From: Halobacillus yeomjeoni
GTDB taxonomy: Bacteria; Bacillota; Bacilli; Bacillales; Halobacillaceae
Assembly (NCBI RefSeq): GCF_020171525.1
Contig: NZ_JAIVAI010000001.1
Coordinates: forward strand, 682,001 to 746,000
Direction of reading: 5' to 3'
Length of the DNA stretch: 64,000 bases
Below the pieces are notes generated by a model. That model was given only the letters and a program-made list of their open reading frames with translations. It ran no database searches and was not told the DNA's origin. The position numbers were made by a program, and so were the translations under genes. Numbering within the stretch: the stretch's first letter is position 1; every line of letters starts with the position of its first letter. Below are positions 6,433 to 60,177 of the stretch, in pieces.

Positions 6433-6434
6433 AC

Positions 6435-6470
6435 AAAACCACCTCCGGCTTTTGAAACCGGAGGTGGTTT
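6435..6470. terminator. Bidirectional terminator between cvfB and YusW-like gene
   Basis: AAACCACCTCCGG pairs perfectly with CCGGAGGTGGTTT around a nine-base loop, with A and T runs on either side. It serves both convergent genes. Confidence 0.9.
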
Positions 6471-6472
6471 AA

Positions 6473-6934
6473 TTAATTATTATAAACTTTTTTCGAACCA
6501 TCATGGTAGGTGACTTCAAGTGCAAATTTACTATAGGAAGGATCAAGCCCCAGGATTTCAATGACTTCCTCGATGATTTCCGGTTTTGTAGTGTCTTCAT
6601 CAAAGCTCATTTCCTGGAAGTGTGGAGTCAGTTGATTGAACGCTTCTTCACCTATGACTTTTTGTTGATCAAAATCATTAATTGTAGCGACTATATCATT
6701 TAGATCGTGAGAGTAAAATACTTCATAAGTTAGATCTTTTTCATAATCGACGGCTAAATTAAATGACCTGAAATTGAATAACTGCTCATTCTTAACTTCT
6801 TCATCGTATGCCGTATTGATAGCTGTGGGATTGTACCTGACTTCTTCATATTGTAGTGGACGTTGATCAGTTCCACAGGCTGCTAATAGGAATACGAGGC
6901 AAATGAAGATTCCTATCATACGTGTATCTATCAA
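6473..6934 (-). CDS. YusW-like lipoprotein
   Basis: A 153-residue lipoprotein. I start it at a TTG because GGAGGG is correctly spaced from it; the result, MIDTRMIGIFICLVFLLAACG, is a lipoprotein signal peptide with lipobox LAAC. The mature part has the YusW-like pattern: a strand region FNLAVDYE, a central GEEAFNQLTP segment, and the end LGLDPSYSKFALEVTYHDGS. YusW-like domains (in B. subtilis YusW) have no known biochemical role. Expected location is the outer face of the membrane. It is alone on this strand, convergent with cvfB. Confidence 0.75.
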   Translation of the reverse strand: MIDTRMIGIFICLVFLLAACGTDQRPLQYEEVRYNPTAINTAYDEEVKNEQLFNFRSFNLAVDYEKDLTYEVFYSHDLNDIVATINDFDQQKVIGEEAFNQLTPHFQEMSFDEDTTKPEIIEEVIEILGLDPSYSKFALEVTYHDGSKKVYNN

Positions 6935-7095
6935 AAAAATCCCTCCATTGATGTGATTTTCTATAGGATTTCCAAGTTTTATCGATTTCATAAGTGATTA
7001 AAGACAGTTGTGCGAGCATAGTAATTCTTCATTGAAATTTATGGTGGTACAATAAGAATAAGAACCCTTGATTCTCAAACGAGGAGGGAAGGCAG

Positions 7096-7674
7096 ATGAA
7101 AAGCAGGATGATGTATGTAGTTATGACACTTATAGTTGTAGGAGTACTCACTTTTGCTGTACAAAGGTTGTCGGGTGAAGAGAAAAAGAGTGAGGATGAA
7201 ATAACCAACAGTCTGGTCGTTCTAAAATATGACGGAACAGAAGTTTCGTATTCTGAAGATGAGTTGAAAGAGATGCTCACTCCAATTCAATATGAGGTAA
7301 CGCAAGAAGATGGGACAGAAAAACCATTTGATAACGAGTATTGGGATCATAAGGAAGAGGGCATTTATGTAGATCTCATATCAGGTGAACCCTTGTTCAG
7401 TTCAACTGATAAATATAAATCAGGAACTGGGTGGCCAAGTTTTACCAAACCGATAAATGATAATAATATCGTAACAAAAGAAGATCCAGGTATTTTCGGT
7501 ATGAGAACTGAAGTGAGAAGTAAACATGGAGACTCTCACCTTGGGCATGTGTTTACTGATGGACCTGAGCCCACTGGATTAAGATACTGCATGAACTCAG
7601 CTGCTCTTAAGTTTATTCCAAAAAACGAGTTAGAAAATGAAGGTTATGGAGAATATATGAACCTCTTTGAGTAA
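7096..7674 (+). CDS. msrB: Membrane-anchored methionine-R-sulfoxide reductase
   Basis: MsrB (192 residues) reduces methionine-R-sulfoxide in proteins. The catalytic cysteine is C165 in [18 protein letters not shown] and HLGHVF are hallmark motifs. Residues 7-22 form a membrane helix, so the domain is probably outside the membrane, unlike the cytosolic MsrB of B. subtilis. The resolving cysteine normally just before GWPSF is Thr111 here, and the CxxC zinc sites of many MsrBs are absent, so regeneration must use direct reduction or another partner. No MsrA is adjacent. Strong GAGGAGG ribosome site. Confidence 0.9.
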
Positions 7675-7679
7675 ATAGT

Positions 7680-7717
7680 AAACCGGGCAGGTCATTTAGA
7701 TCTGTTCCGGTTTTCTT
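7680..7717 (+). terminator. Probable terminator after msrB
   Basis: An imperfect stem (AACCGGGCAGGTC with GATCTGTTCCGGTT) precedes a short T run. The helix has internal mismatches. Confidence 0.55.
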
Positions 7718-7795
7718 ATTTGATTGAAGTTGTCGTTCATTGGCAGATTCTGTATGATTAACTTATAAGTCTATGCAGAGAAGGAGTTAAATATT

Positions 7796-8266
7796 TTGAT
7801 TAAACTCGTACCACTTGAAAAGGAAAACTATGATCTCTACATAAAAGATGAAATACAAAGATACGCAGATGAAAAAGTGAAAGCAGGAACCTGGCACGCA
7901 GAAGAAGCAATCAATAATTCTAAAGATGTGTTTGATGACTTATTACCTGAAGGGCAAGAGACGAAACAGCATTACTTCATGTCGATTCAATCAGTTGATA
8001 CGAAAGAAAGTGAAGGGTACATTTGGTATCATTTCAATACAGAAAATCCTCAAAAAGAGGCTTTTATTTACAACTTTTACATAATTGAAAATGCGAGAGA
8101 TAAGGGGAAAGGCAGTGTCGCTTTGCAAGAACTTGAAGAATACGTACGTCAGCAAGGTGCAGCTAAGCTCTCCCTGCATGTCTTTGCTCATAACCATAGA
8201 GCCGTTCACCTTTATGAGAAAATGAAGTTCAGGACGACAGACATCATGATGTCGAAAGATCTTTAA
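7796..8266 (+). CDS. GNAT-family N-acetyltransferase
   Basis: A 156-residue GCN5-related acetyltransferase. The TTG start is supported by AGAAGGAG seven to ten bases upstream. The acetyl-CoA site is visible around residues 95-115 (IENARDKGKGSVALQELEEY, with the R/QxxGxG/A pattern as RDKGKG), and the C-terminal strand-helix contains FAHNHRAVHLYEKMKF, the usual N..A..LYEK.GF end. The substrate cannot be told from sequence. Confidence 0.8.
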   Translation: MIKLVPLEKENYDLYIKDEIQRYADEKVKAGTWHAEEAINNSKDVFDDLLPEGQETKQHYFMSIQSVDTKESEGYIWYHFNTENPQKEAFIYNFYIIENARDKGKGSVALQELEEYVRQQGAAKLSLHVFAHNHRAVHLYEKMKFRTTDIMMSKDL

Positions 8267-8352
8267 AACAATCTTTGAGAACGTTGACATCTCCATTGAG
8301 AAAGATTATCATTTAGTTAGATTGAAAAAATTCGTAAATGTAGGTGAATGGT

Positions 8353-8907
8353 ATGGTACAGACAAAATCAGAATTAGCAAAAATTATCCGTGAGCGCCGC
8401 TCCGTAAAGAATAATTATTTGGATAAAGAGGTTCCACAAGAATTAGTAGTTGAATTGATGGAAGATGCAAAGTGGGCACCAACTCATGGTATGAGAGAGC
8501 CATGGAGGTTTATTTTTGTTCCTTCTGAAGAGAAAGAGCAATTTGTTGAGGATTTAGTGGCAACTTTCCCTCCTGATCGTCAGGAGAATCGTCGCAATTA
8601 CTTCAGTAAGCCGGCAGCATTCTTGATTGCTGTCATGAAGGAAGATCCACGTCAAAAGCAATGGGATGAAAACTTCGGTGCCATCAGCTGCTTCATTCAA
8701 AACTTCCAACTTCTGGCTTGGGAGAAACAGTTAGGAGTCGTTTGGAAAACAAACCCTCACATTTATGAACCTCAAGTCCGTGAACTGTTAGATATTCAAC
8801 CTGGTGAAAAAATTGCCGGATTCCTGCACCTTGGCTTTTTCGATGAAAAACCGAAAAGCAAAGAACGTACGCCTATTGAAGAGAAATTAACGATTTACAA
8901 GAAATAA
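8353..8907 (+). CDS. Nitroreductase-family NAD(P)H oxidoreductase
   Basis: A 184-residue FMN flavoprotein of the nitroreductase family. IRERRSVKNNY near the N-terminus binds the FMN phosphate (RRSV motif). WAPTHGMREPWRFIFV is the second FMN-contact region, and IAGFLHLGF near the C-terminus closes the fold. AGGTG spaced six bases upstream supports this ATG over a GTG nine bases earlier. Likely a soluble dimer reducing quinones or nitro compounds; the physiological substrate is unknown. Confidence 0.8.
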   Translation: MVQTKSELAKIIRERRSVKNNYLDKEVPQELVVELMEDAKWAPTHGMREPWRFIFVPSEEKEQFVEDLVATFPPDRQENRRNYFSKPAAFLIAVMKEDPRQKQWDENFGAISCFIQNFQLLAWEKQLGVVWKTNPHIYEPQVRELLDIQPGEKIAGFLHLGFFDEKPKSKERTPIEEKLTIYKK

Positions 8908-8913
8908 ATTCTA

Positions 8914-8949
8914 TGAGCACCAGCCATTACGGCTGTGCTCTATTTTTTT
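8914..8949 (+). terminator. Terminator after nitroreductase
   Basis: GAGCACCAGCC pairs with GGCTGTGCTC over ATTAC (one bulge), followed by TATTTTTTTA. Confidence 0.8.
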
Positions 8950-9018
8950 ATACTTGTAGACAGTCTGGATTCCAGCCCATACAATGAATGTAATTCTAGC
9001 TCAGGAACAGGTGAATGC

Positions 9019-9945
9019 ATGAAATCTATCTATTTGTTGTTGTTGTCCGTCATGATGGTATGGGGATTCAATGTCTCGGCTATAAAGATTCTCGTAGCAG
9101 AAATTGATCCTATTCTATTAACATCCATCAGAATCTTCACAGCTGGAGTCGGTGTATTGATTGCTCTCTCTTTTATGAAAATATTAAGACTGCCGACGAA
9201 GAAAGAATTATCAACGATTTGTTACATATTCTTATTCAATGTGGTCGCCCATCATGCTTTGATGGGGGTGGGACTTTTATATACCACGGGCGTCAATGGT
9301 GGTTTAATTGTCGGGTTAGGTCCGCTTTTGACGATGGTTTTATCTACATTTCTCCTAAGTAAAAAAGTGACGTATATAAAAGGCGCTGGATTCCTCCTAG
9401 GATTCACAGGTGTCATCATAACGACATTAGCTGGTCCTGGTGGGGTGAGTGGAATTTCAATAGGAGATCTGTTCGTTTTCTTTTCCATCGCAGCTCAAGC
9501 ATATAGCTTTATTCTGATCGGAAAACTGAATCCTTCGTTAGACCCACGTTTGCTGACAGGTTATATGCTGGTCATCGGTTCTGTTTTCATTTTTGTAATC
9601 AGTATGGTTGTAGAAACTGAACCAGCTCAAATCATTCAGTTATTCAATATGAAAATGATGGGTGTATTCTTATTCAGTGCCTTGATTTGCACCGCTTTTG
9701 GACATATGGTCTATAATTTCGCAACAAAACATGTCGGCCCAGCTGAAACAGCGATCTTCATCAATTTCAACACATTCTTCGCTATTTTGGGTGCAAGTCT
9801 ATTTCTAAAGGAATCGATATATATGGAGCATATCTTAGGCCTCTTATTCATTGTTTCGGGAGTTTTACTTGGTACAGGGGCTGTTGAATATCTCATGAAC
9901 AAGAGGAAAAGAAGACACCAGACGCTGAAAAAACAGTCCATGTAA
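9019..9945 (+). CDS. EamA/DMT-family transporter
   Basis: A 308-residue integral membrane protein with about ten predicted helices arranged as two EamA repeats. The start MKSIYLLLLSVMMVWG follows an AGGTG site; the open frame continues upstream but that stretch overlaps the preceding terminator. MMVWGFN and the C-terminal pair GPAETAIF/GASLFLKE are typical drug/metabolite exporter signatures. It ends in a basic tail. Substrate unknown. It may be cotranscribed with the SRPBCC gene 40 bp downstream. Confidence 0.85.
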   Translation: MKSIYLLLLSVMMVWGFNVSAIKILVAEIDPILLTSIRIFTAGVGVLIALSFMKILRLPTKKELSTICYIFLFNVVAHHALMGVGLLYTTGVNGGLIVGLGPLLTMVLSTFLLSKKVTYIKGAGFLLGFTGVIITTLAGPGGVSGISIGDLFVFFSIAAQAYSFILIGKLNPSLDPRLLTGYMLVIGSVFIFVISMVVETEPAQIIQLFNMKMMGVFLFSALICTAFGHMVYNFATKHVGPAETAIFINFNTFFAILGASLFLKESIYMEHILGLLFIVSGVLLGTGAVEYLMNKRKRRHQTLKKQSM

Positions 9946-9984
9946 TTTCATGCTATGATTATAAAGTGGGAGGGGATGAAAATC

Positions 9985-10437
9985 ATGGAATTTGTTTATA
10001 AAACTTACATAATTTCTACTGTCGATGAAGTATGGAAAGCTCTGACTGAAGGCGATATGACTGAACAGTATTTCTTTGGACGACGTGTGCATTCTGATTG
10101 GGAAGAAGGATCGAAGGTCACATTTTTTACACCATCCGGATCGCTGGATGTTGAGGGTACACTTAAAATTGTTAAGCCTGAGCAGCACTTGTCTTATTCT
10201 TGGCTGCATGCATCGGAAAAAGATCGTAAAAAAGAAACTGTCGTACACTTCTATTTAAAACCTATTGAAAATGCTGTTCGATTGACTTTGGTTCATGAGG
10301 GATTGAATCCTGGTGATTTTTGTGACGACCCTGACACCTTTTATGGATTGAATAATGGCTGGCCCGCTATTTTAAGTAACATGAAGAGTTTAATTGAAAC
10401 GGGTGAAACACTCACTGCCATGAACCTTGATGATTAG
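9985..10437 (+). CDS. SRPBCC/AHSA1-like domain protein
   Basis: A 150-residue START-like protein. MEFVYKTYIISTVDEVWKALTEG begins with the beta-alpha entry typical of AHSA1-type proteins (shown here in parts: STVDEVWKALTE, TEQYFFG). SYSW and RLTLVHEGL are in the usual strand positions, and NGWPAILSNMKSLIETG is the long C-terminal helix lining the ligand pocket. GGGAGGGG lies nine bases upstream of this ATG; two earlier ATGs are too close or lack a site. No function beyond probable ligand binding can be assigned. Confidence 0.75.
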   Translation: MEFVYKTYIISTVDEVWKALTEGDMTEQYFFGRRVHSDWEEGSKVTFFTPSGSLDVEGTLKIVKPEQHLSYSWLHASEKDRKKETVVHFYLKPIENAVRLTLVHEGLNPGDFCDDPDTFYGLNNGWPAILSNMKSLIETGETLTAMNLDD

Positions 10438-10509
10438 TTCTCCATCAAAGGAATCTTGAAATATTTGAAGAATAGTAAAGTTAGATGGAAAATCAAGGAG
10501 GGTGTTTCT

Positions 10510-10932
10510 ATGGGATATGAACCAAAAACAAAGCCTACTGATCATAGTGTCGAGGAATTCATCGAAAATGTAAATCATGAGAAGAAAAAAGAAGATGCTT
10601 ACAGACTATTGGATATATTCACAGAGACTTCAGGCTATGAGGCGAAAATGTGGGGACCAAGTATCATCGGCTTTGGCTCTTACCATTACGTTTATGAATC
10701 AGGTCATGAAGGGGATGCTCCACTCATAGGTTTTTCACCAAGAAAAGCGAATATCAGTCTGTATTTTCCCGCAGATGATCCTAAAAGAGAAACTTTTCTA
10801 GAGAAGCTTGGAAAACATAAGACTGGGAAATCATGTGTTTATATCAATAAAGTCGATGACATTGATGTAGAGGTCATGAAAAATATGATTCAGCATTCCA
10901 TCGAACATCTAAAAGAAAAGTACCCTGGTTGA
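10510..10932 (+). CDS. DUF1801-domain protein
   Basis: A 140-residue cytosolic protein. VEEFIENVNHEKKKEDAY, YEAKMWGPSIIGFGSYHY in pieces (KMWGPSIIGFG) and ISLYF, then KHKTGKSCVYINKVDDID, follow the DUF1801 (YdhG-like) pattern. The domain is structurally related to the frataxin-like/Hpr fold group, with no settled function. The AAGGAGG site fixes the start at MGYEPKTK. It is followed after 18 bp by a small membrane protein gene and is probably cotranscribed with it. Confidence 0.75.
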   Translation: MGYEPKTKPTDHSVEEFIENVNHEKKKEDAYRLLDIFTETSGYEAKMWGPSIIGFGSYHYVYESGHEGDAPLIGFSPRKANISLYFPADDPKRETFLEKLGKHKTGKSCVYINKVDDIDVEVMKNMIQHSIEHLKEKYPG

Positions 10933-10950
10933 TAAGGAGGTAATTAAAGT

Positions 10951-11262
10951 ATGCCTATGGAGCAGGAAGTCTACCCCATGCTGGTGGGAGGCTTTGTTGC
11001 GTTCATGAGTATCGCAATGATTGTAGTCATTTATTTAAGGATCAAAAGAAAACGAAGGGCGTACAACTGGTTCCTCACCCATTTATTATTCTTTTCAGCA
11101 GCCGGTTATTTTCTACTAAAGGCTATGGCTGTACCCTCCGGTGAAGTGATGTCTTCCGAGCAAGCATCCATTCACTTGGGGCAGGCCGGACTTTTATGGG
11201 CTGTAAGTATGGTTTGTCTAATGGGTGGTTTTTTGAAAGCAGGGTCCACTGAGAGTAGATAG
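10951..11262 (+). CDS. Small membrane protein, three helices
   Basis: A 103-residue protein not recognised by family. Three hydrophobic stretches are visible (residues about 10-28, 42-60, 78-96), with the basic loop RIKRKRR between the first two, predicting that loop to be cytoplasmic. AAGGAGG is well placed. It follows the DUF1801 gene and is followed by a long perfect hairpin. Confidence 0.65.
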   Translation: MPMEQEVYPMLVGGFVAFMSIAMIVVIYLRIKRKRRAYNWFLTHLLFFSAAGYFLLKAMAVPSGEVMSSEQASIHLGQAGLLWAVSMVCLMGGFLKAGSTESR

Positions 11263-11272
11263 TCCAGTAAAC

Positions 11273-11317
11273 ATAAACAAAGAACGCTTCCTTCCAGTGG
11301 ACGCGTTCTTTGTTTAT
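11273..11317. terminator. Long perfect inverted repeat, probable terminator
   Basis: ATAAACAAAGAACG pairs perfectly with CGTTCTTTGTTTAT across 17 bases. The downstream T run is weak, but the position between two plus-strand genes fits termination. It ends about 40 bp before the next start codon, so it could also form a hairpin in that gene's leader. Confidence 0.6.
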
Positions 11318-11359
11318 ATCAATCTTTATGGAATAAAATATAAAGTAGGAGACTGGTTT

Positions 11360-12139
11360 ATGAAGTATGCGATTTCTGTCACAGATACAAAAAAAGTTAA
11401 TGAAATTGAAGACAAAGGAAAACAAGTATTAAACGCTTTGAATGAATATATTCCAAAACTTGAGCAGTTGACTAAGGTTGAACAACCAAGGGGGATGGTA
11501 TTCCACGATTTTTCCTCTGCAACAGAACTCTATTCTGAAATTCCTATTCCAGCTTATACATCAAGAGATTTGATTCATTTGAACCCAGAGCCTTCCGTTT
11601 GGAAAGAGATTTTCTTTTCAACAGTAGTCCCAGAAAAAATGGGCGAGGTTTATGATTATTATAGTGAAACAAATGTAAGAGAAGTTGCTATGATCGCAGC
11701 TCATGAATGGACCCACCATGCAGAGTTCTTCCACGATGATTTTGAAGGTGATGAAGAGAACATGTGGTTTGAGGAAGGAATGTGTGAGTACATTCCGAGA
11801 ACGTTCATGCTGGATGAGCAGGAACGAGTACGTTTGAGCCGCGTAGAATATGAACTTATTCAATTTTACAAGTCTGAGTTTGGTGAATACCCATTAGTAA
11901 ACTTCGGACAGGCTGGATATCGGATGGGCAATAATGAGTCTTTCACAGCTGCTTTCTATGATTATTGGAGAAGTGCCTGGGTGGTGGAACGCCTGGTCGA
12001 GGATTATTTTGATGGAAGTCTCACACCCTTGATTCAACTCTATCAATCTTGGGATCAGTCGCAGCCGCTTCACGACTTTTTTATCGAAGAGCTGCATATA
12101 AGTGATCACACTGCACGTGAACTATGGTTAAAAAGGTAG
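11360..12139 (+). CDS. Gluzincin-like metalloprotease domain protein
   Basis: A 259-residue protein without a signal peptide. The zinc motif HEWTH (HExxH) lies in IAAHEWTHHAEFF, about residue 116 onward, and is followed about 20 residues later by WFEEGMCEYI, giving the third ligand Glu of the gluzincin pattern (HExxH...E). FYDYWRSAWVVERL and a C-terminal PLIQLYQSWDQ region resemble the helical tail of minigluzincins and peptidase-MA-like proteins. An AGGAG site fixes the start MKYAISVTD. Activity and substrate are inferred from the motif only. Confidence 0.7.
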   Translation: MKYAISVTDTKKVNEIEDKGKQVLNALNEYIPKLEQLTKVEQPRGMVFHDFSSATELYSEIPIPAYTSRDLIHLNPEPSVWKEIFFSTVVPEKMGEVYDYYSETNVREVAMIAAHEWTHHAEFFHDDFEGDEENMWFEEGMCEYIPRTFMLDEQERVRLSRVEYELIQFYKSEFGEYPLVNFGQAGYRMGNNESFTAAFYDYWRSAWVVERLVEDYFDGSLTPLIQLYQSWDQSQPLHDFFIEELHISDHTARELWLKR

Positions 12140-48179: not shown

Positions 48180-49703
48180 CTATTCTTCTATCAAACCTTC
48201 ACTAATCAAATAATCATGAGCCACATCTTCAGGATCTGCATCTTCAAAGCTTACTTTATAATTCATTTCACGCATCTGATCCCCGGTGATTTTACCACCA
48301 AGCTTATTCAGTACGTCCAATTCAGGATAACGATCCAATGTTTCCTGTCTCATCAGAGGTGCTCCTTGATAAGGAGGGAAAAGGTTCTTCGGATCTTCGA
48401 GCACTTTCAAATTCAAGTCAACCATGTATCCGGCTGTTGCGTAAGCATCAATGATGTCAACATCACCCGATTCAATAGCTCCCTGTCTCAAACCAGGATC
48501 CATCGTCTCCACATCACCAAGATTCAAGTTATACAACTCTTTCATACCTTGGTACCCATCTTTACGGTCGTTGAACTCCAATGTGAATCCGGCTGTGATT
48601 TGGTCTTCGACTTTTTTAAGGTCTCCGATCGTCTCCAAGCCATAACGTTCAGCAAGCTCCTGAGTCGTGGCTACCGCATAGGTATTATTGAATTTCATCG
48701 GCTCTAAAAAGGCCATGTCGTATTGTTGGGCCATTCCTTTTTTGGCTTGCTGATAAACTTCATCAGGGTTGTTGCTCACGGCTTGTTCATTCATCAATGT
48801 AACAATTGCCGTCCCTGTAAATTCAGGGTAGATGTCGATACTGCCTTCCTCAAGAGCGCTGAAAACAAGATCCGTTTTCCCAAGATTAGGCTTCAACCCT
48901 ACATTGATATCCGTTTCCTCTTCAATCAAAAGTTTGTACATATTAATTAGTATGGCAGGTTCAGAACCTAACTTTGCACCAATCACGATATCTTTTCTGT
49001 CTTCACCTGCAAAAGCCAGTGGTCCTACAGCTATTAAAGCTGCCACAACTAAAAGGCTCACGAGTGATCGGAACCCTGACTTCGCTGAAGTCCGTTCAAA
49101 AAGGCGGAGGATGAAGTCCAAAATGATAGCTAACAATGCTGCGGGAATTGCACCTAATAAAATCAGGTTAATGTCCCCGCCACGGTCCAAACCAAGAAGA
49201 ATCAAATCTCCCAGACCACCCGCTCCGATTAAAGCTGCAATTGTGGTCGTTCCCACAATCAAGACCATTGAAGTACGTATTCCCGCCATGATGACAGGCA
49301 TCGCCAGTGGCAGTTCAATTTTTGAAAGACGGCGGAAGGAACTCATTCCCATCCCGGTCGCGGCTTCTTTCAGTGCTGGATCCACTTCTTTGATTCCGGT
49401 GTAGGCATTCCGCAGAATCGGTAAAAGTCCGTAAGCGGTCAATGCAATAATGGCAGGCGTCTGGCCGATACCGAAAAACGGAATCAAAAAAGCCAGTACA
49501 GCCAAGCTTGGAATCGTCTGCAGAATAGCCGTCACTCCTATGATGGGCTCCGCAACTCTTTGATATCGGGTCAATAAAAGTCCGAGAGGGACAGAGATCA
49601 GCGTCGCAATGACAAGAGCGATAATGGAGATTTGTAGGTGCTCCCAAATCTTCTCTACTAGAACATCTTGTCTTTTAGCAAAAACCTCTATAAATGTGTT
49701 CAT
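48180..49703 (-). CDS. opuFB: OpuF-type permease fused to substrate-binding domain
   Basis: A 507-residue fusion. Residues about 15-215 are an OpuCB/OpuAB-type membrane domain with five to six helices and the EAA loop (EAATGMGMSSFRRLSKIELPLAMPVIMAG in segments). After another helix (about 222-245) comes an OpuCC-like binding domain (about 250-507: VIGAKLGSEPAILINMYKLL and GSIDIYPEFTGTA in segments). This TM-SBD fusion is the OpuF layout described in Bacillus. It would import glycine betaine or related osmoprotectants. Start overlaps the ATPase gene stop (ATGA). Confidence 0.88.
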   Translation of the reverse strand: MNTFIEVFAKRQDVLVEKIWEHLQISIIALVIATLISVPLGLLLTRYQRVAEPIIGVTAILQTIPSLAVLAFLIPFFGIGQTPAIIALTAYGLLPILRNAYTGIKEVDPALKEAATGMGMSSFRRLSKIELPLAMPVIMAGIRTSMVLIVGTTTIAALIGAGGLGDLILLGLDRGGDINLILLGAIPAALLAIILDFILRLFERTSAKSGFRSLVSLLVVAALIAVGPLAFAGEDRKDIVIGAKLGSEPAILINMYKLLIEEETDINVGLKPNLGKTDLVFSALEEGSIDIYPEFTGTAIVTLMNEQAVSNNPDEVYQQAKKGMAQQYDMAFLEPMKFNNTYAVATTQELAERYGLETIGDLKKVEDQITAGFTLEFNDRKDGYQGMKELYNLNLGDVETMDPGLRQGAIESGDVDIIDAYATAGYMVDLNLKVLEDPKNLFPPYQGAPLMRQETLDRYPELDVLNKLGGKITGDQMREMNYKVSFEDADPEDVAHDYLISEGLIEE

Positions 49704-50764
49704 GGCTGCACCACCCCGTTTTCTTTAGAATGTTCTTTGAGGTAGAGCACGATATCCTTATGAGAAAGGGTTCCTATCAATTGGTCACCCTTTTTTACAG
49801 GAAGAAGTTGATAATCGTTTTGTTCGAAAACCTCAGTTGCTTCTCTTAACGTCATGCCATTATCCAGAGCAGGCAGATCGACTTTGTCTCCATTACTAAA
49901 GCCAGTAAGATATTTTCCTTTATCATCTTTGACGACATGTGTGCCTTGTGACGGCACATGTCCGGATTCCAGCTGTTCTTGAGTAAATAATTTGCTGCTC
50001 GTTTGATCCATGATGACATCCACCGCTGTCTGCCATGGAGTTTTACGGCTTCCGATAAAGTCTCTTACAAAGTCGTTCGCAGGTTGTAAGATGAGGTTTT
50101 GAGGGGTATCGAGCTGAACGATTTCTCCTTCTTTCATTAGACAGACACGATCTCCAAGAGCCATGGCTTCATCCATATCATGCGTTACAAAGACGATGGT
50201 TTTTTGGATTTCCTGCTGTAATTGTCGAATATCTTTCTGTAACTGCTCACGACTGATCGGATCCAAAGCACTGAATGGCTCGTCCATTAAAATGATATCA
50301 GGGTCAGCAGCCAATGCTCTGATGACTCCTACCCTTTGCTGCTGTCCTCCCGAGAGTTCGCTCGGTTTTCTTTTTCGGTGCTTTTGAGCATCGAGGCCGA
50401 CCATATCCATCAATTCATCGATTCGATTGGATAGATCTTTTTTCTTCCATTTCTTCATTTCAGGTACGACTGAAATATTTTCTTCAATTGTCATATGGGG
50501 AAATAAAGCAATTTCCTGTAATACATAACCGATATTCCATCGTAACTCGTGGATATTATAATCGCGGATGTCTTTATTATGTATTTTGATCGTCCCTTCG
50601 GACGGCTTGATAAGACGATTGATCATTTTCATCGTCGTCGTTTTTCCGCAACCACTCGGACCGATGAGAGTGAGCAACTCGCCTTCCTGCACTTCCAGGT
50701 TGATGTTTTTCAAGGCTGTAGTCCCATCTGGATACGTTTTGGTTACGTCGTTGAACGTAATCAT
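49700..50764 (-). CDS. opuFA: OpuF ATPase subunit (osmoprotectant ABC importer)
   Basis: A 354-residue ABC ATPase. Walker A GPSGCGKTT (about 35-43), signature LSGGQQQRVGV, Walker B ILMDEPFSALD, and switch His in VFVTHDMDEAMALGD. The C-terminal part (about 240-345) has CBS-like strands (LREATEVFEQNDYQLLPVKKGDQLIGTLS in segments), as in OpuAA/OpuCA, where CBS domains sense ionic strength. A GGGGG site precedes the ATG. First gene of a two-gene operon; osmotic induction is expected but no clear promoter is visible. Confidence 0.9.
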   Translation of the reverse strand: MITFNDVTKTYPDGTTALKNINLEVQEGELLTLIGPSGCGKTTTMKMINRLIKPSEGTIKIHNKDIRDYNIHELRWNIGYVLQEIALFPHMTIEENISVVPEMKKWKKKDLSNRIDELMDMVGLDAQKHRKRKPSELSGGQQQRVGVIRALAADPDIILMDEPFSALDPISREQLQKDIRQLQQEIQKTIVFVTHDMDEAMALGDRVCLMKEGEIVQLDTPQNLILQPANDFVRDFIGSRKTPWQTAVDVIMDQTSSKLFTQEQLESGHVPSQGTHVVKDDKGKYLTGFSNGDKVDLPALDNGMTLREATEVFEQNDYQLLPVKKGDQLIGTLSHKDIVLYLKEHSKENGVVQP

Positions 50765-53739: not shown

Positions 53740-53773
53740 GAAGGAAACGCACTTTCGTACGTTTCCTTTTTTC
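53740..53773 (-). terminator. Terminator of the phosphorylase operon
   Basis: AAGGAAACG pairs with CGTTTCCTT across about ten bases, with T-rich DNA beyond on both strands. It ends the minus-strand operon running from 58846 to 53785. Confidence 0.8.
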
Positions 53774-53784
53774 TTACATCTTCT

Positions 53785-54321
53785 TTATGCACCGGCCTCT
53801 TTCAAGTAGGTGAAAATCGTGTCTTTGATGGGAAAATCCACTTTGCCATTCAGAGCGTCAACAGCTATGATGTCGTATTGCTGCTTCCGATCCTTCGTGT
53901 AACCGATCCAATAAGGTACATGCACCAGCCACTGGTCTTGGATCACGACTTTAATTTTATGTCGTTTCTTTTCCTTTGAAAAAAGTTCCCAGTAGATTGC
54001 ACTTTCGGCGTGCTTTTCACTCAATATTTTAGAAGCGCTAGGGAACGTGGTTTCTCCTGCCTGCTGTACCGGGTACTCCATCGGCAAAATCGCTTTGATA
54101 TGATTGACCGGATCAATTGCAATTCTACCTTCCATCCCTTCCGTGACAGAATGGGCTTCAGCATAGTAATCGAAGCACCAGAAGGGGATATACATTTTTT
54201 CGACAGACACAAGGGTTTTATTCCTTTTAAGTCTTCTCAACCATTTTGACTGAACATGGGTGTTCATTTTTGAAATGGCCTCTTTTCGGTTCAACTCAGC
54301 CTGTAAATAGTGACTGCTCAT
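53785..54321 (-). CDS. Unknown protein, last gene of the phosphorylase operon
   Basis: A 178-residue soluble protein I do not recognise. It is basic at the N-terminus (KWLRRLKRNK), has an aromatic patch (YIPFWCFDYYAEA) and a later HVPYWIGYTKDRKQQYDIIAVDALNG region, suggesting a beta-rich fold of two similar halves around YxPFW/VPYW motifs. No signal peptide or membrane helix. The start is 12 bp after the symporter gene stop, with AGGTGG. Context suggests a link to the symporter or the osmolyte pathway; function unknown. Confidence 0.7.
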   Translation of the reverse strand: MSSHYLQAELNRKEAISKMNTHVQSKWLRRLKRNKTLVSVEKMYIPFWCFDYYAEAHSVTEGMEGRIAIDPVNHIKAILPMEYPVQQAGETTFPSASKILSEKHAESAIYWELFSKEKKRHKIKVVIQDQWLVHVPYWIGYTKDRKQQYDIIAVDALNGKVDFPIKDTIFTYLKEAGA

Positions 54322-54333
54322 TGTTCCACCTAC

Positions 54334-55962
54334 CTACATATTTTGTAGCCAAAGCAAGAAAGCGATGACACCGAAGAAGTAAAGAACGAGATAAAGGGGC
54401 CATTTTTTGGTCTTTTTCTCAATCAGTGATTCATCTTCCACAGAAACAGCAGCTTCTGCTCTTGCCGATAAGCTTTCTTGAAGTTCTGCGTCATTTCTAT
54501 GTATAGTCAATCCTTCCACCTTTTCAGAAGCTGGAGCCTCCGTAAATCTGCTGACTAGAATACCAAAGCCAATGGCAACCACTGCTCCCACTAAATTGTT
54601 ATACAACCACGATACTTCAGCGAACGCTGTTACCGCCCAAACAGAAGCCATGCCAGCAATAACGCCTATGAAGGCTCCTGTTCCATTCACCCGTCGAGTG
54701 AAAATGGCAAGGATGAAGACACCTAAGAGAGCGCCGTAAAAATAGGATCCGACCTTATTGACCGCCTCGATCACCGGACCTAAATTGCCGGCGAAGAAAG
54801 CGAAAATCGTTGCGTAAATTCCCCAGAATACCGTCGCATATCGTGATGCCTTCAGGTAATGTTCCTCAGAGGCATTTTTTCTGTAAAACTTACTGTAAAA
54901 ATCCCGGATCGTCACGGCTGAAAGAGAGTTGAGTGCAGAATCCAGACTGGACATCGCTGCTGCGAAAACTCCAGCGATAATCAATCCTGATATCCCGATT
55001 GGCAGTTCATTGACGACAAATCTAGGGAATAATTCGTTTAAGTTGTTGATATTCGGATCTCCCGCATATTGATAGTAAATGTACAAAAGAACACCGATCA
55101 GCAAGAATAAAAGCATTTGAGGGATCATCAATACCCCACTCAAAACTAAAGATAACTTACTTTCGCGGATCGATTTACTCGTCAGGACACGCTGGATTTG
55201 ACTTTGATCCGTTCCAAAGTACGCGGCATGAAGGAAGAATCCTCCGATGACACCAGCCCAAATACTATATTCCACGGACAAATCAATAGAAAAGTCGATG
55301 GAGTTCAACATCCCGGTTTGTGAAGCCGTATTCAACACTTCCGTCCATCCTCCAGGGACATCTTGGAAAATGATAAACACACTCAAGCCTGCTCCGATCC
55401 ATAGGACGAACATTTGAATGACGTCGGTCCAGATGACTGCACTGATTCCACCGAGAACAGTGTAGGAAACCGCGATGACCGCCATGAGAATGATCGTTAT
55501 GCTGACATCCATTCCCGTAACGACCGATAGAACAAGCGCCGGAGCGTATAAAACGACTCCCGTAGCCAAACCACGAGCAATTAAAAATAATGCTGCAGTC
55601 AAAGTCCTCGTCTTCACGTCAAATCTCCGCTCTAAATACTCATAAGCGGTGTAGACTTCGGTTTTATAAAAGAATGGAACAATGGTAGCGATCAAAAATG
55701 CCATGGCCAGCGGTACATTGACAAAGGTGACCATCCTCGTCAAGCCGCCTTCATATCCCCATCCCGGGGCACCGATGAAGGTGATGGCACTGGCCTGGGT
55801 CGCCATGACAGAAAGTCCGATCGCCCACCAAGGAATGCTTCTTCCACCTAAGAAATAATCTTTCGTCGATTTTTGCTTTTTCCCGAACATGGCACCGATC
55901 GCAGCAGTACCCAGTACATAAACGATAAAGATGATGTAGTCGATCACTGTAAAGCTACTCAT
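54334..55962 (-). CDS. Sodium:solute symporter (SSS family)
   Basis: A 542-residue transporter with about 13 membrane helices. KSTKDYFLGGRSIPWWAIGLS (in segments) and ATQASAITFIGAPGWGYEGG near the start, and GLIIAGVFAAAMSSLDSALNSLSAVTIRDFY, are SSS hallmarks; the serines and Asp there bind Na+. A polar cytoplasmic stretch (about 465-515) precedes a final helix. Embedded between a glycerate kinase and an unknown gene in the phosphorylase operon, it is the best candidate for uptake of glucosylglycerate or glycerate, driven by Na+. Substrate is inferred. Confidence 0.85.
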   Translation of the reverse strand: MSSFTVIDYIIFIVYVLGTAAIGAMFGKKQKSTKDYFLGGRSIPWWAIGLSVMATQASAITFIGAPGWGYEGGLTRMVTFVNVPLAMAFLIATIVPFFYKTEVYTAYEYLERRFDVKTRTLTAALFLIARGLATGVVLYAPALVLSVVTGMDVSITIILMAVIAVSYTVLGGISAVIWTDVIQMFVLWIGAGLSVFIIFQDVPGGWTEVLNTASQTGMLNSIDFSIDLSVEYSIWAGVIGGFFLHAAYFGTDQSQIQRVLTSKSIRESKLSLVLSGVLMIPQMLLFLLIGVLLYIYYQYAGDPNINNLNELFPRFVVNELPIGISGLIIAGVFAAAMSSLDSALNSLSAVTIRDFYSKFYRKNASEEHYLKASRYATVFWGIYATIFAFFAGNLGPVIEAVNKVGSYFYGALLGVFILAIFTRRVNGTGAFIGVIAGMASVWAVTAFAEVSWLYNNLVGAVVAIGFGILVSRFTEAPASEKVEGLTIHRNDAELQESLSARAEAAVSVEDESLIEKKTKKWPLYLVLYFFGVIAFLLWLQNM

Positions 55963-55982
55963 CTACTCCACTCCTCTCCAGG

Positions 55983-57113
55983 TTACATGTGATAAACTTC
56001 CATAAAGCGATGACTAGCTTTTTTACACAATTCCTTCCCTCTACTCATAGCTTCTTCCAGACTCATCGGCTCATCTACGATCGGCAGGATGACATTCAAG
56101 CCTTCAGACTTCGCTGCATGCAAGTCCCCTTCAACTTTCCCAGTCAAGGCTATACAGGGTACCCCGGCCTCTTTCGCCATTTGAGCTATACCAACGGGAA
56201 CTTTCCCATAAAGCGATTGACTGTCCATCTTCCCTTCACCTGTGATGACCAGATCGGCATCGGCAAGGTGACCTTTGAGATCACTCCATTCAGCGATCAG
56301 CCGGAACCCACTCTCTACTTCAGGTTGATCCAACAAGCTGAAGAGGGTAAACCCGAATCCTCCTGCCGCACCACTTCCGTTTATATGACGACATTTTTTT
56401 GTAGTGTGATCTTCTACTACAGAAGCATATTGAGTCATCTTCTGTTCAAAGACAGGCAGCTGTTCTTGTGTAACGCCTTTTTGCGGCCCGAAAACCGCCA
56501 CGGCACCCTTTTCTCCTAATAATGGATTAGTCACGTCAGATGCAATGGTCCACTCCACTTCATTCATTCTCGGATGCATAGAATCAGTTTCAATTTTTGA
56601 CACTGAGGATAATGAATCCCCACACATGTCAAGCTTCTCCCTTTCTTCATTCAGGAAATGGACCCCTAACGCTTGGAAGCATCCTGTTCCTGCATCGACT
56701 GTCGCACTTCCACCGAGACCTAAGATGATTTTTTCTGCTCCTCGCTCCAAAGCATCCGCAATCAACTGTCCCGTTCCGTAGGTGCTGGTTTCCATAGGAT
56801 TCAGCTCCTGGGTATCTAGTAAAGGTAATCCGGAAGCCGCAGCTGTTTCTACTACAGCTGTTTTTGTATGGTTGATCCATCCATAGGAAGCCGTTATCTC
56901 ACGGCCTAAAGGATCAAACACTTCTTTTTCAATCCGTGTTCCACCCAAAATCGATAAAAGCGCATCCACCGTACCTTCTCCGCCATCAGCCATCGGAATC
57001 GTTTTGACAGTCATATCTGGATCATAAAACTGCAGACCTTTTTTGATTGATGCTGCGGCTTCTGTGCTTGACATGGAACCTTTGAACGAATCAGGAGCGA
57101 CTATCACTTTCAT
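55983..57113 (-). CDS. glxK: Glycerate kinase (GlxK/GarK type, 2-phosphoglycerate-forming class)
   Basis: A 376-residue type-I glycerate kinase. VIVAPDSFKGSMSSTEAA in segments (residues 3-18), MADGGEGTVDAL (about 43-54), LGLGGSATVDAGTG, and LVITGEGKMDSQSLYGK are the family signatures. GGAGG seven bases upstream fixes MKVIVAP. It lies 2 bp after the phosphorylase gene, so tight coupling is expected. It would phosphorylate D-glycerate released from glucosylglycerate and pass it to glycolysis. Confidence 0.92.
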   Translation of the reverse strand: MKVIVAPDSFKGSMSSTEAAASIKKGLQFYDPDMTVKTIPMADGGEGTVDALLSILGGTRIEKEVFDPLGREITASYGWINHTKTAVVETAAASGLPLLDTQELNPMETSTYGTGQLIADALERGAEKIILGLGGSATVDAGTGCFQALGVHFLNEEREKLDMCGDSLSSVSKIETDSMHPRMNEVEWTIASDVTNPLLGEKGAVAVFGPQKGVTQEQLPVFEQKMTQYASVVEDHTTKKCRHINGSGAAGGFGFTLFSLLDQPEVESGFRLIAEWSDLKGHLADADLVITGEGKMDSQSLYGKVPVGIAQMAKEAGVPCIALTGKVEGDLHAAKSEGLNVILPIVDEPMSLEEAMSRGKELCKKASHRFMEVYHM

Positions 57114-57115
57114 TT

Positions 57116-58846
57116 TTATGCCTCCTTCAGCCACATCACTTGATATGGAGCAAGCTCTATGTTTGAACTTTGCAAGGAGATGGTGGATTCTGTTATCAGG
57201 TCATGGACATTTTCAACACCAACCGCTTTTTGGACAGCCTCCGTATCTACATCGACTTGCTGGTCCGACACGTTGACGAGTACAGTGATCGTCTCACCAG
57301 ATTTTTCGTTGCTTCGAATCACAGAAAATACACGATCATCAAGGAAAAGCACTTCCTGCTCTGCGTTCGGATGGAAGGCTGACTCTTGTGTACGTTTCTC
57401 GATACGGTTTAAATACGTATCAAAAATCATTGAACGCAGGCTTCCATCTTCATCCAACTCACTTTCAAGTCGGTCACGGTTCAATTTTTCCCGGTTGATG
57501 GAACGATATCGCCCTGTCTCATCCACTCCTTCCTGATCATTCAATGACCCAAGCAGACTATGGATATAAATCCCCGGAACACCTTTAACAGAAAGAAGGA
57601 TCATTTGCGCAGCGAGGAAGCGAGCTACATTCTGGTCTGTCTCATCTTCTGGTTTTGATAATGCACTCAAGTAATTGACATTCAATTCATAAGGACTCTG
57701 GGTTCCATCGCCGTTATCTTTATAGGACACATACCCGTGATTGTCTTTGACTTGATCGACCATTTTCTGCACTTCTTCTTCTGTCAAAATTCCTTCTACC
57801 GGCCGAAGACCTATGCCGTCATGGGAAGCAAGGAAGTTGAAAAACGTCGTATGGTCGCTTGTAGGTTCTAATGAATCGGCCCACTCAGATAAGTGCTTGG
57901 CATTTCCGGACATAAATGCATTCAGCGTCAATGGAGGAAGAGGGAACTGATAAACCATATGCGCTTCGTTCGTTCCATCTCCGAAATAGCTGATGTTGTC
58001 TTTATGCGGCACATTCGTTTCTGTAATGATGATCGTTCCAGGAGAAATCTCTTCAAGGACATCTCTCATCACCTGGACGATTCGATGGGTTTCTTCCAAA
58101 TGGATGCTGGATGTATTCAAACGCTTCCATAAAAAGCCGATGGCATCGAGGCGCAAATATCTTGCTCCGTGCTTGACGTACTGGACTAAGATATCCAGGA
58201 CTTCCATAAAGAGTTTCTCACTCTCATAATTCAAGTCGATCTGGTCTTCACTGAACGTCGTCCATACATATTTTGTACCTTGTGCATGCTCGACTTTTGT
58301 CAGAAGAGGCAGGGCACGCGGGCGGACGATCGAACTGTAATCTTCATCTGGATCTGCTTCGACGAAGTAGTCCTGGTAGTCTGGATCCCCTTCCAAATAG
58401 TTTAAGAACCAGTCACTTTTACTGGAAATATGGTTGATGACCGCATCAAACATTAAATCGAATTGTTCGGACAACTCGTGGACATCCTCCCAGTTTCCGA
58501 CTTCCGGATTGACTTTCAAGTAGTCCTGCACGGAAAATCCGTCATCGGATGTGAATGGATAGAAAGGCAGAATGTGAACAGAATTGATCGTGTCCCCTAC
58601 GCGCTCTTTAAGAAAGGAATTCAACGTCTGTAGAGGATTCTTTTCCTCGCTCTTGATCGTATCCCCATAAGTGATTAACATAACATCTTTCTCATCAACC
58701 CACTGTTTGGATTTTGGTTTCGTTTTTCCCTTATACGATTCAATCAAGTGTTGAACGGACTCGAAAATCCGCCTTCCTTTTTCTTCACCGTAAACAAACT
58801 CAAGGTTGTTTATAATTTTGTTCATTTTTTCTTTATTGAAGTTCAT
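57116..58846 (-). CDS. GH13_18 sugar phosphorylase, probable glucosylglycerate phosphorylase
   Basis: A 576-residue GH13 enzyme. The nucleophile is D234 in LRLDAIGFLWK, acid/base E276 in IIITETNVPH, and third acid D343 in LASHDGIG. RLDAIGFLWKRLNTSSIHLEETH in segments differs from sucrose phosphorylases and matches the YcjM-like glucosylglycerate phosphorylase group as I recall it. Partner glycerate kinase starts 2 bp later. The predicted reaction is glucosylglycerate plus phosphate to glucose-1-phosphate plus D-glycerate. AAGGAG fixes the ATG. A cre-like site precedes it. Sucrose phosphorylase is the alternative but fits the neighbours less well. Confidence 0.8.
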   Translation of the reverse strand: MNFNKEKMNKIINNLEFVYGEEKGRRIFESVQHLIESYKGKTKPKSKQWVDEKDVMLITYGDTIKSEEKNPLQTLNSFLKERVGDTINSVHILPFYPFTSDDGFSVQDYLKVNPEVGNWEDVHELSEQFDLMFDAVINHISSKSDWFLNYLEGDPDYQDYFVEADPDEDYSSIVRPRALPLLTKVEHAQGTKYVWTTFSEDQIDLNYESEKLFMEVLDILVQYVKHGARYLRLDAIGFLWKRLNTSSIHLEETHRIVQVMRDVLEEISPGTIIITETNVPHKDNISYFGDGTNEAHMVYQFPLPPLTLNAFMSGNAKHLSEWADSLEPTSDHTTFFNFLASHDGIGLRPVEGILTEEEVQKMVDQVKDNHGYVSYKDNGDGTQSPYELNVNYLSALSKPEDETDQNVARFLAAQMILLSVKGVPGIYIHSLLGSLNDQEGVDETGRYRSINREKLNRDRLESELDEDGSLRSMIFDTYLNRIEKRTQESAFHPNAEQEVLFLDDRVFSVIRSNEKSGETITVLVNVSDQQVDVDTEAVQKAVGVENVHDLITESTISLQSSNIELAPYQVMWLKEA

Positions 58847-58866
58847 ATTAAATTCTCCTTTTTGGG

Positions 58867-58880
58867 TGTTAACGCTATCA
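58867..58880. promoter_or_regulatory. cre-like (CcpA) site before the phosphorylase gene
   Basis: TGTTAACGCTATCA matches the cre consensus TGWAANCGNTNWCA except at one position. It lies 21 bp upstream of the phosphorylase start, suggesting carbon catabolite repression. Confidence 0.55.
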
Positions 58881-58958
58881 TAGGAAATTATTTTACAAAT
58901 TACTATAGTACAGAAACTAAATAGATAGGGTTTATCATCATTATATTTTGTTCTCCAT

Positions 58959-58992
58959 AACAAAAAGACATCGATCACGATGTCTTTTTGTT
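58959..58992 (-). terminator. Terminator after CdaR-type gene
   Basis: AACAAAAAGACATCG pairs perfectly with CGATGTCTTTTTGTT over ATCA. It overlaps the last codons of the regulator and separates it from the phosphorylase operon. Confidence 0.9.
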
Positions 58993-60177
58993 GATTCTAT
59001 TAAAACTGACAGCCACCTGCAAAAGTGTGGAATCCTTGATATCACGAGGGTCATAGCCTGTCAGTTCTGCAATTTTCTTTAATCGGTATTGTAAGGTATT
59101 TTTATGAATGTGCATCATTTGTGCAGCTTCAGTGACAGACCCTCGACATTGGAAAAATACCTTCATCGTTTCAAGACTATCGGGAATTTTCATCAACTGA
59201 TCAGGCTTCAAGATACGTTCAACGAAATCTTGTCTGACAGAAGCAGGCAGGTCATACATAAACGATTCAACCCCTAAATCATCAAAAAAGGATAGGTTTT
59301 GATCATGGTCGGAAGCATACTGGAGTGAACGTTCAGCTTCCTCCAGTGATTTCCACATATCTTCAGGGTTCGTACAGAGTCCGCCAATTCCCATGACGAT
59401 TTTCTGCCGGTATGTAAAATCAAGAGCTTCCTTAATTCTACTTAACCTGAATAGAATTTTGTTTTTCTGCTTCTCTTTTTCATCTTCAGGATTGATTGAA
59501 AGGAGCAGGATATACCTGGAGCTGCCATCTGGAATGAGAAGGTGTTCGTGTCGTTCTGGGAAATGCTGAGTGATCAAGTGTTCAATGTCTCTCCGATATC
59601 GCTGTAAATGGACTTCTTCCTTCATATCAACCTCAGCATTTTCCATTCTTTCATACCAATACTCCTGAAATCCAGCGAGTTCCAAAACGACGGCCGCGCG
59701 TGGTTTATGAATATTGATCCCAAACATCCAGCCTCTCGTAGCCAGAAGTTTTTCATCCTCATACTTTTGGTGAACCCACTCAGTGATGAACGTTTCCCGC
59801 GCCTGCTTCTCCAATTCCACCTGGTCATCCAAGTAAGCTTCCTTTATCAAAATCTCTGTCATTTTCTTGAGCAGTTCTCCGAGCTGATTCACCTCTGAAG
59901 GTTTGCCGGTAATACCGATCACGCCGACAACTTGATGATTCAACCGGACGGGAAGGTTGATTCCTGGTTTGGCTCCTTCATACTCCTCCCCGGTTGATAT
60001 GATGACTTTATTTTCAGTCCGGAGTACTTCTCGAGCACCTTCATGAAAATCACCGATTCTCTCAAAATCCATACTCGCTATGATTTTCGCATTATGATCC
60101 ATAAAATTGATATTCTGCTTTGTAATCGCCTGCGTTTCCTGAACGATTGATTGTGCGACTTGCTGTGAGATGTGCAT
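58975..60177 (-). CDS. CdaR/PucR-type sugar-diacid (glycerate) regulator
   Basis: A 400-residue activator. The N-terminal diacid-recognition domain (about 1-135) includes ISQQVAQSIVQETQAITKQNINFMD in segments and VGVIGITGKPSEV. A GGDEF-like central domain (about 140-300) and a C-terminal PucR HTH follow (about 335-395: QCRGSVTEAAQMMHIHKNTLQYRLKKIAELTGYD in segments). E. coli CdaR responds to D-glycerate and glucarate, which fits a glycerate-producing operon downstream. It has its own terminator and lies upstream of the operon on the same strand. Confidence 0.88.
   Translation of the reverse strand: MHISQQVAQSIVQETQAITKQNINFMDHNAKIIASMDFERIGDFHEGAREVLRTENKVIISTGEEYEGAKPGINLPVRLNHQVVGVIGITGKPSEVNQLGELLKKMTEILIKEAYLDDQVELEKQARETFITEWVHQKYEDEKLLATRGWMFGINIHKPRAAVVLELAGFQEYWYERMENAEVDMKEEVHLQRYRRDIEHLITQHFPERHEHLLIPDGSSRYILLLSINPEDEKEKQKNKILFRLSRIKEALDFTYRQKIVMGIGGLCTNPEDMWKSLEEAERSLQYASDHDQNLSFFDDLGVESFMYDLPASVRQDFVERILKPDQLMKIPDSLETMKVFFQCRGSVTEAAQMMHIHKNTLQYRLKKIAELTGYDPRDIKDSTLLQVAVSFNRINKKTS

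Follow-up and report, generated by a model that had tools for sequence, protein, structure and literature searches.

The window analysed here is the whole 64,000-nucleotide stretch of Halobacillus yeomjeoni contig NZ_JAIVAI010000001.1 (positions 682,001 to 746,000). It carries on its minus strand genes for a CdaR-type regulator, a GH13_18 phosphorylase, a glycerate kinase (GlxK), a sodium/solute symporter of the SSS family and a 178-residue soluble protein, designated UNK. Based on sequence analysis, the locus very probably contains an operon for the catabolism of 2-O-alpha-glucosyl-D-glycerate (glucosylglycerate), a compatible solute and osmolyte of marine and saline microbes, with the SSS protein as the importer. 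The first-pass annotation, made from the DNA letters, had read the cluster as import and phosphorolysis of this solute. That reading is favoured by two fingerprints in the phosphorylase, the conservation of the operon, the co-occurrence of symporter and phosphorylase genes, the exchange of importers around the phosphorylase, and the pairing of related symporters with GH63 hydrolases.

In the proposed pathway, the symporter would in all likelihood import intact glucosylglycerate with Na+. In the cytoplasm, a glucosylglycerate phosphorylase (GGaP), a family assignment made from its sequence, would use phosphate to convert it to glucose 1-phosphate and D-glycerate. The glycerate kinase would phosphorylate glycerate for entry into lower glycolysis, while phosphoglucomutase would take the glucose 1-phosphate; both steps are established chemistry of their families. 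Entry into glycolysis, also claimed in the first pass, follows from these reaction products by established biochemistry. CdaR probably activates the operon from a TGTAACATAG-type site, and CcpA would repress it through a catabolite-responsive element (cre box), a site that is present in the DNA, when better sugars are available. UNK may help or control the symporter.

Organization of the locus

The five genes listed by the first-pass annotation (a YcjM-like GH13_18 phosphorylase, a glycerate kinase, an SSS symporter, a protein of no assigned family and a CdaR-type regulator) are all present as intact open reading frames (ORFs) on the minus strand, with Pfam matches for the named families, at the following positions.

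58975..60177, minus strand: cdaR-type regulator, 400 aa; Diacid_rec PF05651 (E value 8.3e-47) and HTH_30 (E value 1.7e-21); position kept in relatives
58958..58993, no strand assigned: terminator-like hairpin overlapping the cdaR end; 16-pair stem, listed on the plus strand by the scan, the stem reading on both
58900..58912, minus strand: candidate CdaR operator TGTACTATAGTAA (TGTAACATAGAAA in relatives); conserved block in the gap between cdaR and the GGaP gene
58867..58880, minus strand: cre box TGATAGCGTTAACA, 20 bp upstream of the GGaP start codon; exact match to TGWNANCGNTNWCA
57116..58846, minus strand: predicted GH13_18 glucosylglycerate phosphorylase (ggaP); TETN, SPYE, 45.5% identity to E. 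coli YcjM
55983..57113, minus strand: glycerate kinase of the GlxK/GarK family, 376 aa; PF02595 (E value 1.6e-137), TIGR00045
54334..55962, minus strand: SSS (PF00474) Na+/solute symporter, 542 aa, proposed glucosylglycerate importer; Pfam SSF, conserved beside GGaP
53785..54321, minus strand: UNK, 178-aa soluble SSS companion; two similar alpha-beta halves, weakly PepSY-like
53741..53768, minus strand: terminator-like hairpin closing the operon; 12-pair stem and T-rich tail

Translation of the phosphorylase most likely begins with the ATG at 58846, preceded by the good ribosome-binding sequence AAAGGAG, rather than at the start of the longer ORF at 58978. The gap from its stop codon to the kinase ATG is 2 nt, exactly as the first pass had given it, and the remaining gaps between operon genes are likewise short; therefore ggaP and the kinase, SSS and UNK genes are regarded as one operon (53785-58846). 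Because cdaR ends inside the terminator-like hairpin, it is probably a separate transcription unit. The earlier description of a single unit behind CdaR holds for the four-gene operon, from which cdaR itself probably stands apart. A promoter scan returned 13 sites against 12.7 expected and carries no information.

Identity of the phosphorylase

GGaP fingerprints comprise (T/S)ETN at the tip of beta-strand 5 and a Glu replacing Gln in loop A (PMC7178133), and PMC10608839 relies on the identical two motifs. The window phosphorylase has a Pfam Alpha-amylase catalytic domain (E value 1e-25), retains the RLDAIG and SHDG stretches, and contains TETN at residues 276-279 and SPYE at residues 385-388 (numbering of the translated piece 57119-58849, minus strand). 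Both fingerprints are also found in E. coli YcjM, which is annotated as glucosylglycerate phosphorylase. By the two fingerprints and its kinship to YcjM, the window phosphorylase is classed as a GGaP.

Both marks occur in 77 of 80 homolog rows (5 rows being repeats). The other three, which serve as an inner control, are distant homologs with 26-29% identity and a DVHQ loop, the loop A reported for a sucrose 6F-phosphate phosphorylase (SPP; PMC7178133). The repeats are 5 genes taken from two sources, and dropping the duplicates left a 75-sequence tree; only GGaP matches of about 380 aligned residues or more were kept, so the broken copy of genome G025 is not among the rows. In the tree, a 72-row group that includes YcjM is separated (100/100) from the three SPP-motif proteins. 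The phylogeny that the first-pass annotation had recommended therefore bears out the grouping with YcjM and the split from SPP-motif proteins; the comparison with sucrose phosphorylases fell outside it, as both these and glucosylglycerol phosphorylases lay outside the tree.

Two other assignments were tried and rejected. Sucrose phosphorylase and glucosylglycerol phosphorylase were discarded since the protein scores 229 bits with TIGR03852 against a cut-off of 334 and has SPYE in loop A, neither N(L/V)D(I/L/V)YQ nor VGAIYQ. The choice of GGaP over sucrose phosphorylase, one of the points on which the first pass had made its reading depend, is thus favoured by TETN, the loop-A Glu, the kinship to YcjM and the score under the sucrose phosphorylase cut-off.

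Two minor observations concern other members of the family. The GH13_18 proteins with the DVHQ loop (L054, L055 and L056) have PfkB-type kinase-like genes alongside, and the GGaP genes at L050 (8288-9975) and L202 (8638-9882) appear to be broken or shortened by an in-frame TGA.

Exchange of importers around GGaP

Importer labels were assigned by script within 8 genes of GGaP, the importers being named by BLAST to E. coli genes. Three kinds were found in GGaP contexts: SSS, a YcjNOP-like ATP-binding cassette (ABC) importer, and an MngA-like phosphotransferase system (PTS) accompanied by an MngB-like GH38 protein. Among the 72 tree rows with GGaP marks, 31 are linked to PTS, 21 to SSS, 18 to ABC, 1 to a partial ABC system and 1 to none, and the kinds are clustered by clade; over all 75 tree rows the labels change 11 times, compared with 36.2 in shuffles. 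The window GGaP falls inside a 12-row SSS clade (98/94), the nearest neighbours of which are ABC-linked (L038, and L166 in part). This swapping of importers in the GGaP tree suggests that SSS fills the importer slot of the GGaP operon. Loop A is SPYE in all 26 SSS-type rows and SVYE in 19 of the 31 PTS-type rows (duplicates included).

The PTS-type GGaP loci (L042, L043, L045-L049, L051, L052, L180-L197, L199-L201 and L206) belong to operons that combine MngA/MngB-like PTS and GH38 genes with one for an RpiR regulator. In CdaR-linked clusters, GGaP has beside it a gene for a glycosyltransferase-like protein (PF00534; about 450 aa) at L166 (7072-8442), L167 (7379-8731) and L169 (6565-7929), the three loci covered by the PF00534 scan, and an ORF of similar size is present at L168 (7460).

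Conservation and co-occurrence

The gene order CdaR-GGaP-GlxK-SSS-UNK is repeated in six other genomes of the same genus (L031, L033-L037), which makes it more than a chance arrangement. A seventh copy (L032) is truncated by the contig edge ahead of UNK, and in L040 the CdaR gene lies at the far end. When GTDB genomes were scanned with the window SSS, the best 80 matches included 12 named orthologs at 71-89% identity, after which identity fell to 44% or less. GGaP belongs to the same gene group in 10 of these 12, eight with GlxK and UNK (L059, L061, L063, L064, L065, L067, L069 and L070) and two without GlxK beside SSS, namely Salinicoccus luteus (L060) and Marinococcus halophilus (L068). In Sediminibacillus halophilus (L070, 9986-11628) the SSS gene is split in two ORFs, which points to an assembly error or decay.

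Co-occurrence was counted in 299 genomes of the host's order, including that of the window, with thresholds of E value at most 1e-150 and at least 73% for SSS and E value at most 1e-60 for GGaP. SSS is present in 10 genomes and GGaP in 49, with both in 10, so that GGaP is found in 39 of the 289 genomes lacking SSS (Fisher p 6e-9, uncorrected for kinship; SSS is spread over 6 genera). The two genes are neighbours in 9 of the 10 genomes and far apart in G024.

Pairing with GH63 hydrolases in Bacteroidota

Four distant SSS genes from Bacteroidota (L091, L093, L102 and L105) have a gene for a protein of about 440 aa directly upstream. The Tenacibaculum protein matches TTHA0978 of T. thermophilus (2z07/4wva; E value 5e-93) and 5ohc of M. 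hassiacum (E value 1e-67), 4wva being a mannosylglycerate hydrolase and 5ohc a glucosylglycerate hydrolase (PMC6608630). A GH63 homolog is present in 31 of 199 genomes of the Tenacibaculum family. Thirty loci were read, among them that of the query and those from the L102 and L105 genomes; the 31st match (G687) has no locus. A same-strand SSS gene follows the GH63 homolog in 30 of 30 loci; no ORF separates the two in 25 (22 of these with a distance of 120 bp at most), and one other ORF intervenes in five (L245, L246, L249, L253 and L254). The intervening ORF of about 200 aa in L246, L249, L253 and L254 looks acetyltransferase-like by eye.

At L108 and L130, SSS adjoins GGaP instead of GH63. 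In an SSS tree (quick method, SH-aLRT only), GH63-linked and GGaP-linked proteins fall together in a 16-row clade (100*) with a GH63-linked member at its base, its members having 35-42% identity to the window SSS. Since one clade holds both kinds, these symporters would pair with two unrelated enzymes of a common substrate class. Two labels of metagenome-assembled genomes look doubtful: the 'Rickettsiales' entry at L130 groups with Bacteroidota SSS, and the 'Bordetella parapertussis' entry at L114 stands among mostly acidobacterial SSS matches.

The symporter

The window protein scores 190.5 bits with the SSS profile PF00474 (cut-off 22.8; E value 6e-56). Its predicted model (pLDDT 82.8) matches the LeuT-type fold of 5nva with an E value of 2e-24. 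By both sequence and fold, the closest solved relative is SiaT (5NV9/5NVA), with about 30% identity; SiaT carries an acidic sugar together with Na+. Ser60, Thr63 and Arg135 of SiaT hold the carboxylate (PMC5931594), and the counterparts of the first two in the window SSS are S58 and T61; the third position has Ala, with an Arg (R130), invariant in all 28 aligned SSS, one turn before it. The Na2 site is kept (SiaT Ser342 and Ser343 correspond to S338 and S339); of the Na3 site (SiaT Asp182, Ser345 and Ser346), D180 and S342 are retained, while Asp341 replaces Ser345. Gln56 is common to 12 Bacillota rows, 7 Bacteroidota-type rows and L073, and the other 8 aligned SSS have Glu. Without naming the substrate, these residues fit one that is anionic and Na+-coupled.

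Glycerate kinase, CdaR and regulatory sites

The glycerate kinase exceeds both curated cut-offs (PF02595, 458.8 against 23.3 bits; TIGR00045, 435.4 against 168.45), and the regulator combines Diacid_rec with a PucR-type helix-turn-helix (E values 8e-47 and 2e-21). The CdaR family responds to glycerate, and the window regulator may do likewise. The gap between cdaR and GGaP carries the conserved TGTAACATAG-type block, and this candidate operator precedes GGaP in 13 of the 79 rows scanned (a count with duplicates), 12 of them SSS-type and one ABC-type (L167); cdaR adjoins GGaP in all 13. The window has 3 matches to the Bacillus cre consensus (PMC9104551) against 0.29 expected. The identical 14-mer occurs in relatives, and cre boxes lie upstream of 9 of the 79 GGaP rows, every one SSS-type. 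The motif scan covered about 260 bases before GGaP, a gene that others precede in PTS and most ABC clusters, so that absence there is uninformative. A perfect and conserved cre box fits a catabolic operon under catabolite control.

In the window's genome (98.5% complete), no match to MpgS was found and GpgS gave weak matches only, the best with 50 bits against a cut-off of 262; the GpgS family was also matched in every one of 14 control genomes, one of which exceeded the cut-off. Synthesis of the solute instead of its uptake was rejected on these grounds. Together, the cre box and the absence of GpgS or MpgS above cut-off point to an external carbon source used under catabolite control.

The companion protein UNK

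No Pfam domain was matched in UNK, and Foldseek found nothing in the PDB below an E value of 0.16; VIA-align gave only middling Z values, and PepSY kinship is a lead. UNK follows SSS in all 12 named orthologs. Among long matches to its family (at least 124 of 178 profile positions; 7 short matches, of about 50 residues in proteins of 343-350 aa, were left aside), 15 of 15 are encoded immediately downstream of an SSS gene, which in five cases is of another SSS type. This strict position suggests that UNK is a soluble partner assisting or controlling the symporter. At an E value of at most 1e-6, a 348-genome sample of the phylum contained UNK in the window's genome only, and it is also present in L060 (Salinicoccus) and L063 (Planococcus); UNK is rare, and is not confined to the window's genome. 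Elsewhere in that genome (G000:C2, approximately 246236-248251; L238, 6237-8252), a second SSS gene is followed by one for a distant UNK-like protein.

Alternative explanations

Several observations weigh against glucosylglycerate as the substrate of the symporter or against the regulation proposed. The residue aligned with Arg135 of SiaT is A133, with R130 standing one helical turn earlier. R130 is invariant in 28 of 28 aligned SSS, and was dropped as a diagnostic carboxylate residue, as it also occurs in SSS without such a context and marks a wider group. The regulator does not reach the CdaR equivalog NF008550 (149.5 bits against a cut-off of 612), and the upstream sites are partial among the 26 SSS-type rows, the cre box being found in 9 and the candidate operator in 12. 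At L062, Thalassobacillus devorans has CdaR-GlxK-SSS-UNK with no local GGaP, and H. massiliensis (L066) has neither GGaP nor GlxK locally. In L066 (6778-12182) and in L203 of genome G024 (5965-11376), SSS and UNK lie behind a ROK regulator and two Gfo/Idh-like oxidoreductases; these SSS form their own pair in the tree, and may carry another substrate, perhaps another glycoside. The genomes of L062, L066 and L203 all have a PTS-type GGaP elsewhere. Finally, the Bacillota and Bacteroidota clades are not resolved as sisters in the SSS tree, and 57 of 68 distant SSS loci have no marker genes nearby, while one has only a second SSS; many of these contigs are short, and the SSS ORF was uncalled in 4 of the 68.

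It might be supposed that the kinase receives free D-glycerate, or some similar hydroxy acid, through SSS, and that GGaP merely recycles internal glucosylglycerate. The arrangement in T. devorans would suit this, other SSS such as SMCT1 carry small carboxylates, and the CdaR family answers to glycerate. Import of glycerate alone would nevertheless be insufficient, because GGaP stands beside SSS without GlxK at L060 and L068 and because the GH63-SSS pairs exist, with L091 and L105 having no GlxK within four genes. Furthermore, GGaP is present in every one of the 10 SSS genomes of the order set and in trans in T. devorans, and no GpgS above cut-off is available to make the solute inside. We judge free-glycerate import decidedly improbable. 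A hydrophobic leader is missing from both GGaP and the GH63 protein; for this reason, and since GGaP needs phosphate and feeds the kinase, cleavage would occur inside the cell, and the intact glycoside would have to be imported. A related view, in which SSS carries mannosylglycerate or hexosylglycerates generally and glucosylglycerate is one substrate of several, is encouraged by the MngA/MngB-like PTS genes beside GGaP in 31 rows and by the higher score of the flavobacterial GH63 protein against mannosylglycerate hydrolase. We hold it to be unlikely, though worth keeping in mind, as an MngB-like GH38 gene occurs in none of 25 SSS clusters (duplicates included).

The imported solute might also be kept for osmoprotection, with GGaP adjusting its level or running in reverse to synthesise it. 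The hosts are halophilic, phosphorylase reactions are reversible (PMC11009771), and it has been suggested that GGaP might regulate the solute level (PMC7178133). Against this, the glycerate kinase of the operon would drain the product, and the perfect, conserved cre box suggests catabolite control, which makes osmoprotection improbable here. Lastly, a phosphorylase acting on sucrose or glucosylglycerol, with SSS as a carrier of either compound, is very hard to credit: TIGR03852 (sucrose_gtfA) is indeed the nearest curated family and the best solved relatives are named sucrose and glucosylglycerol phosphorylase, but the score lies below the family cut-off, loop A reads SPYE, and a glycerate kinase adjoins. 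Import and phosphorolysis of glucosylglycerate is the explanation that we prefer.

Relation to known systems

The ycjMNOPQRSTU cluster of E. coli shares with the window a GH13_18 enzyme of the same type, at 45.5% identity and with both fingerprints, but has ABC importer genes, a kojibiose phosphorylase, dehydrogenases and the repressor YcjW, and neither SSS nor glycerate kinase. E. coli mngRAB resembles the proposed system in importing and cleaving a hexosylglycerate, and MngA/MngB-like genes flank 31 GGaP genes of the order; it employs PTS import with phosphorylation followed by hydrolysis, in contrast to Na+ symport and phosphorolysis. The GH63 hydrolases acting on glucosylglycerate in mycobacteria and on mannosylglycerate in Thermus address the same compound class, and their homologs pair with related SSS in the Tenacibaculum family, yet they belong to another enzyme family, and no such gene was seen in the operon of the window or at the corresponding Bacillota loci. 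SiaT, the best solved relative, shares with the window SSS the Na2 serines and two carboxylate-binding positions, and differs from it in the low identity, the Arg135 counterpart one turn off and the Asp for Ser at one Na3 position. EctI is likewise an SSS protein whose gene is grouped with those for the compatible solute that it imports, but its substrates are ectoines and betaines and the linked genes are those of synthesis (PMC13342039).

The pathway enzyme GGaP is already known. A Na+ symporter for its substrate, or a description of a soluble SSS companion family, was not found in the literature searched, which was covered mostly through listings: no SSS importer of glucosylglycerate is mentioned in the excerpts of PMC5507952, PMC2874817, PMC10608839 and PMC10873239, and neither 'glucosylglycer' nor 'glycerate' occurs in the text of the SSS review PMC7918813. 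A possible precedent is the glucosylglycerate operon of Prochlorococcus, which has a putative transporter gene whose family is not stated in the excerpt (PMC11631117). Within these sources, the suggestion of the first-pass annotation that an SSS transporter for this solute would be new stands.

The metabolic function of GGaP has not been experimentally confirmed, and many carriers of the gene are not believed to accumulate the solute (PMC7178133). An importer beside GGaP would explain what the enzyme is for in these bacteria, namely that glucosylglycerate is eaten. We further advance, tentatively and with somewhat less than even confidence, a joint proposal: that the Bacillota and Bacteroidota SSS sets would be hexosylglycerate-specific and paired interchangeably with a GH13_18 phosphorylase or a GH63 hydrolase, and that UNK would represent an undescribed family of soluble, two-halved, PepSY-like SSS companions, encoded right after SSS genes of no fewer than three clearly distinct types in Bacillus-like bacteria, which would couple the carrier to the state of the cell or aid its assembly. 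If true, such companions would add something new to a group of transporters that has been studied intensively. With GH63-linked relatives in Bacteroidota, the idea could be tested in a second phylum, and the vague annotation 'SSS family transporter' could become specific.

A second compatible-solute system lies near the operon: positions 48180-50764 of the window encode a glycine betaine-type ABC importer, consisting of a fused permease and OpuAC binding domain and an ATPase with CBS.

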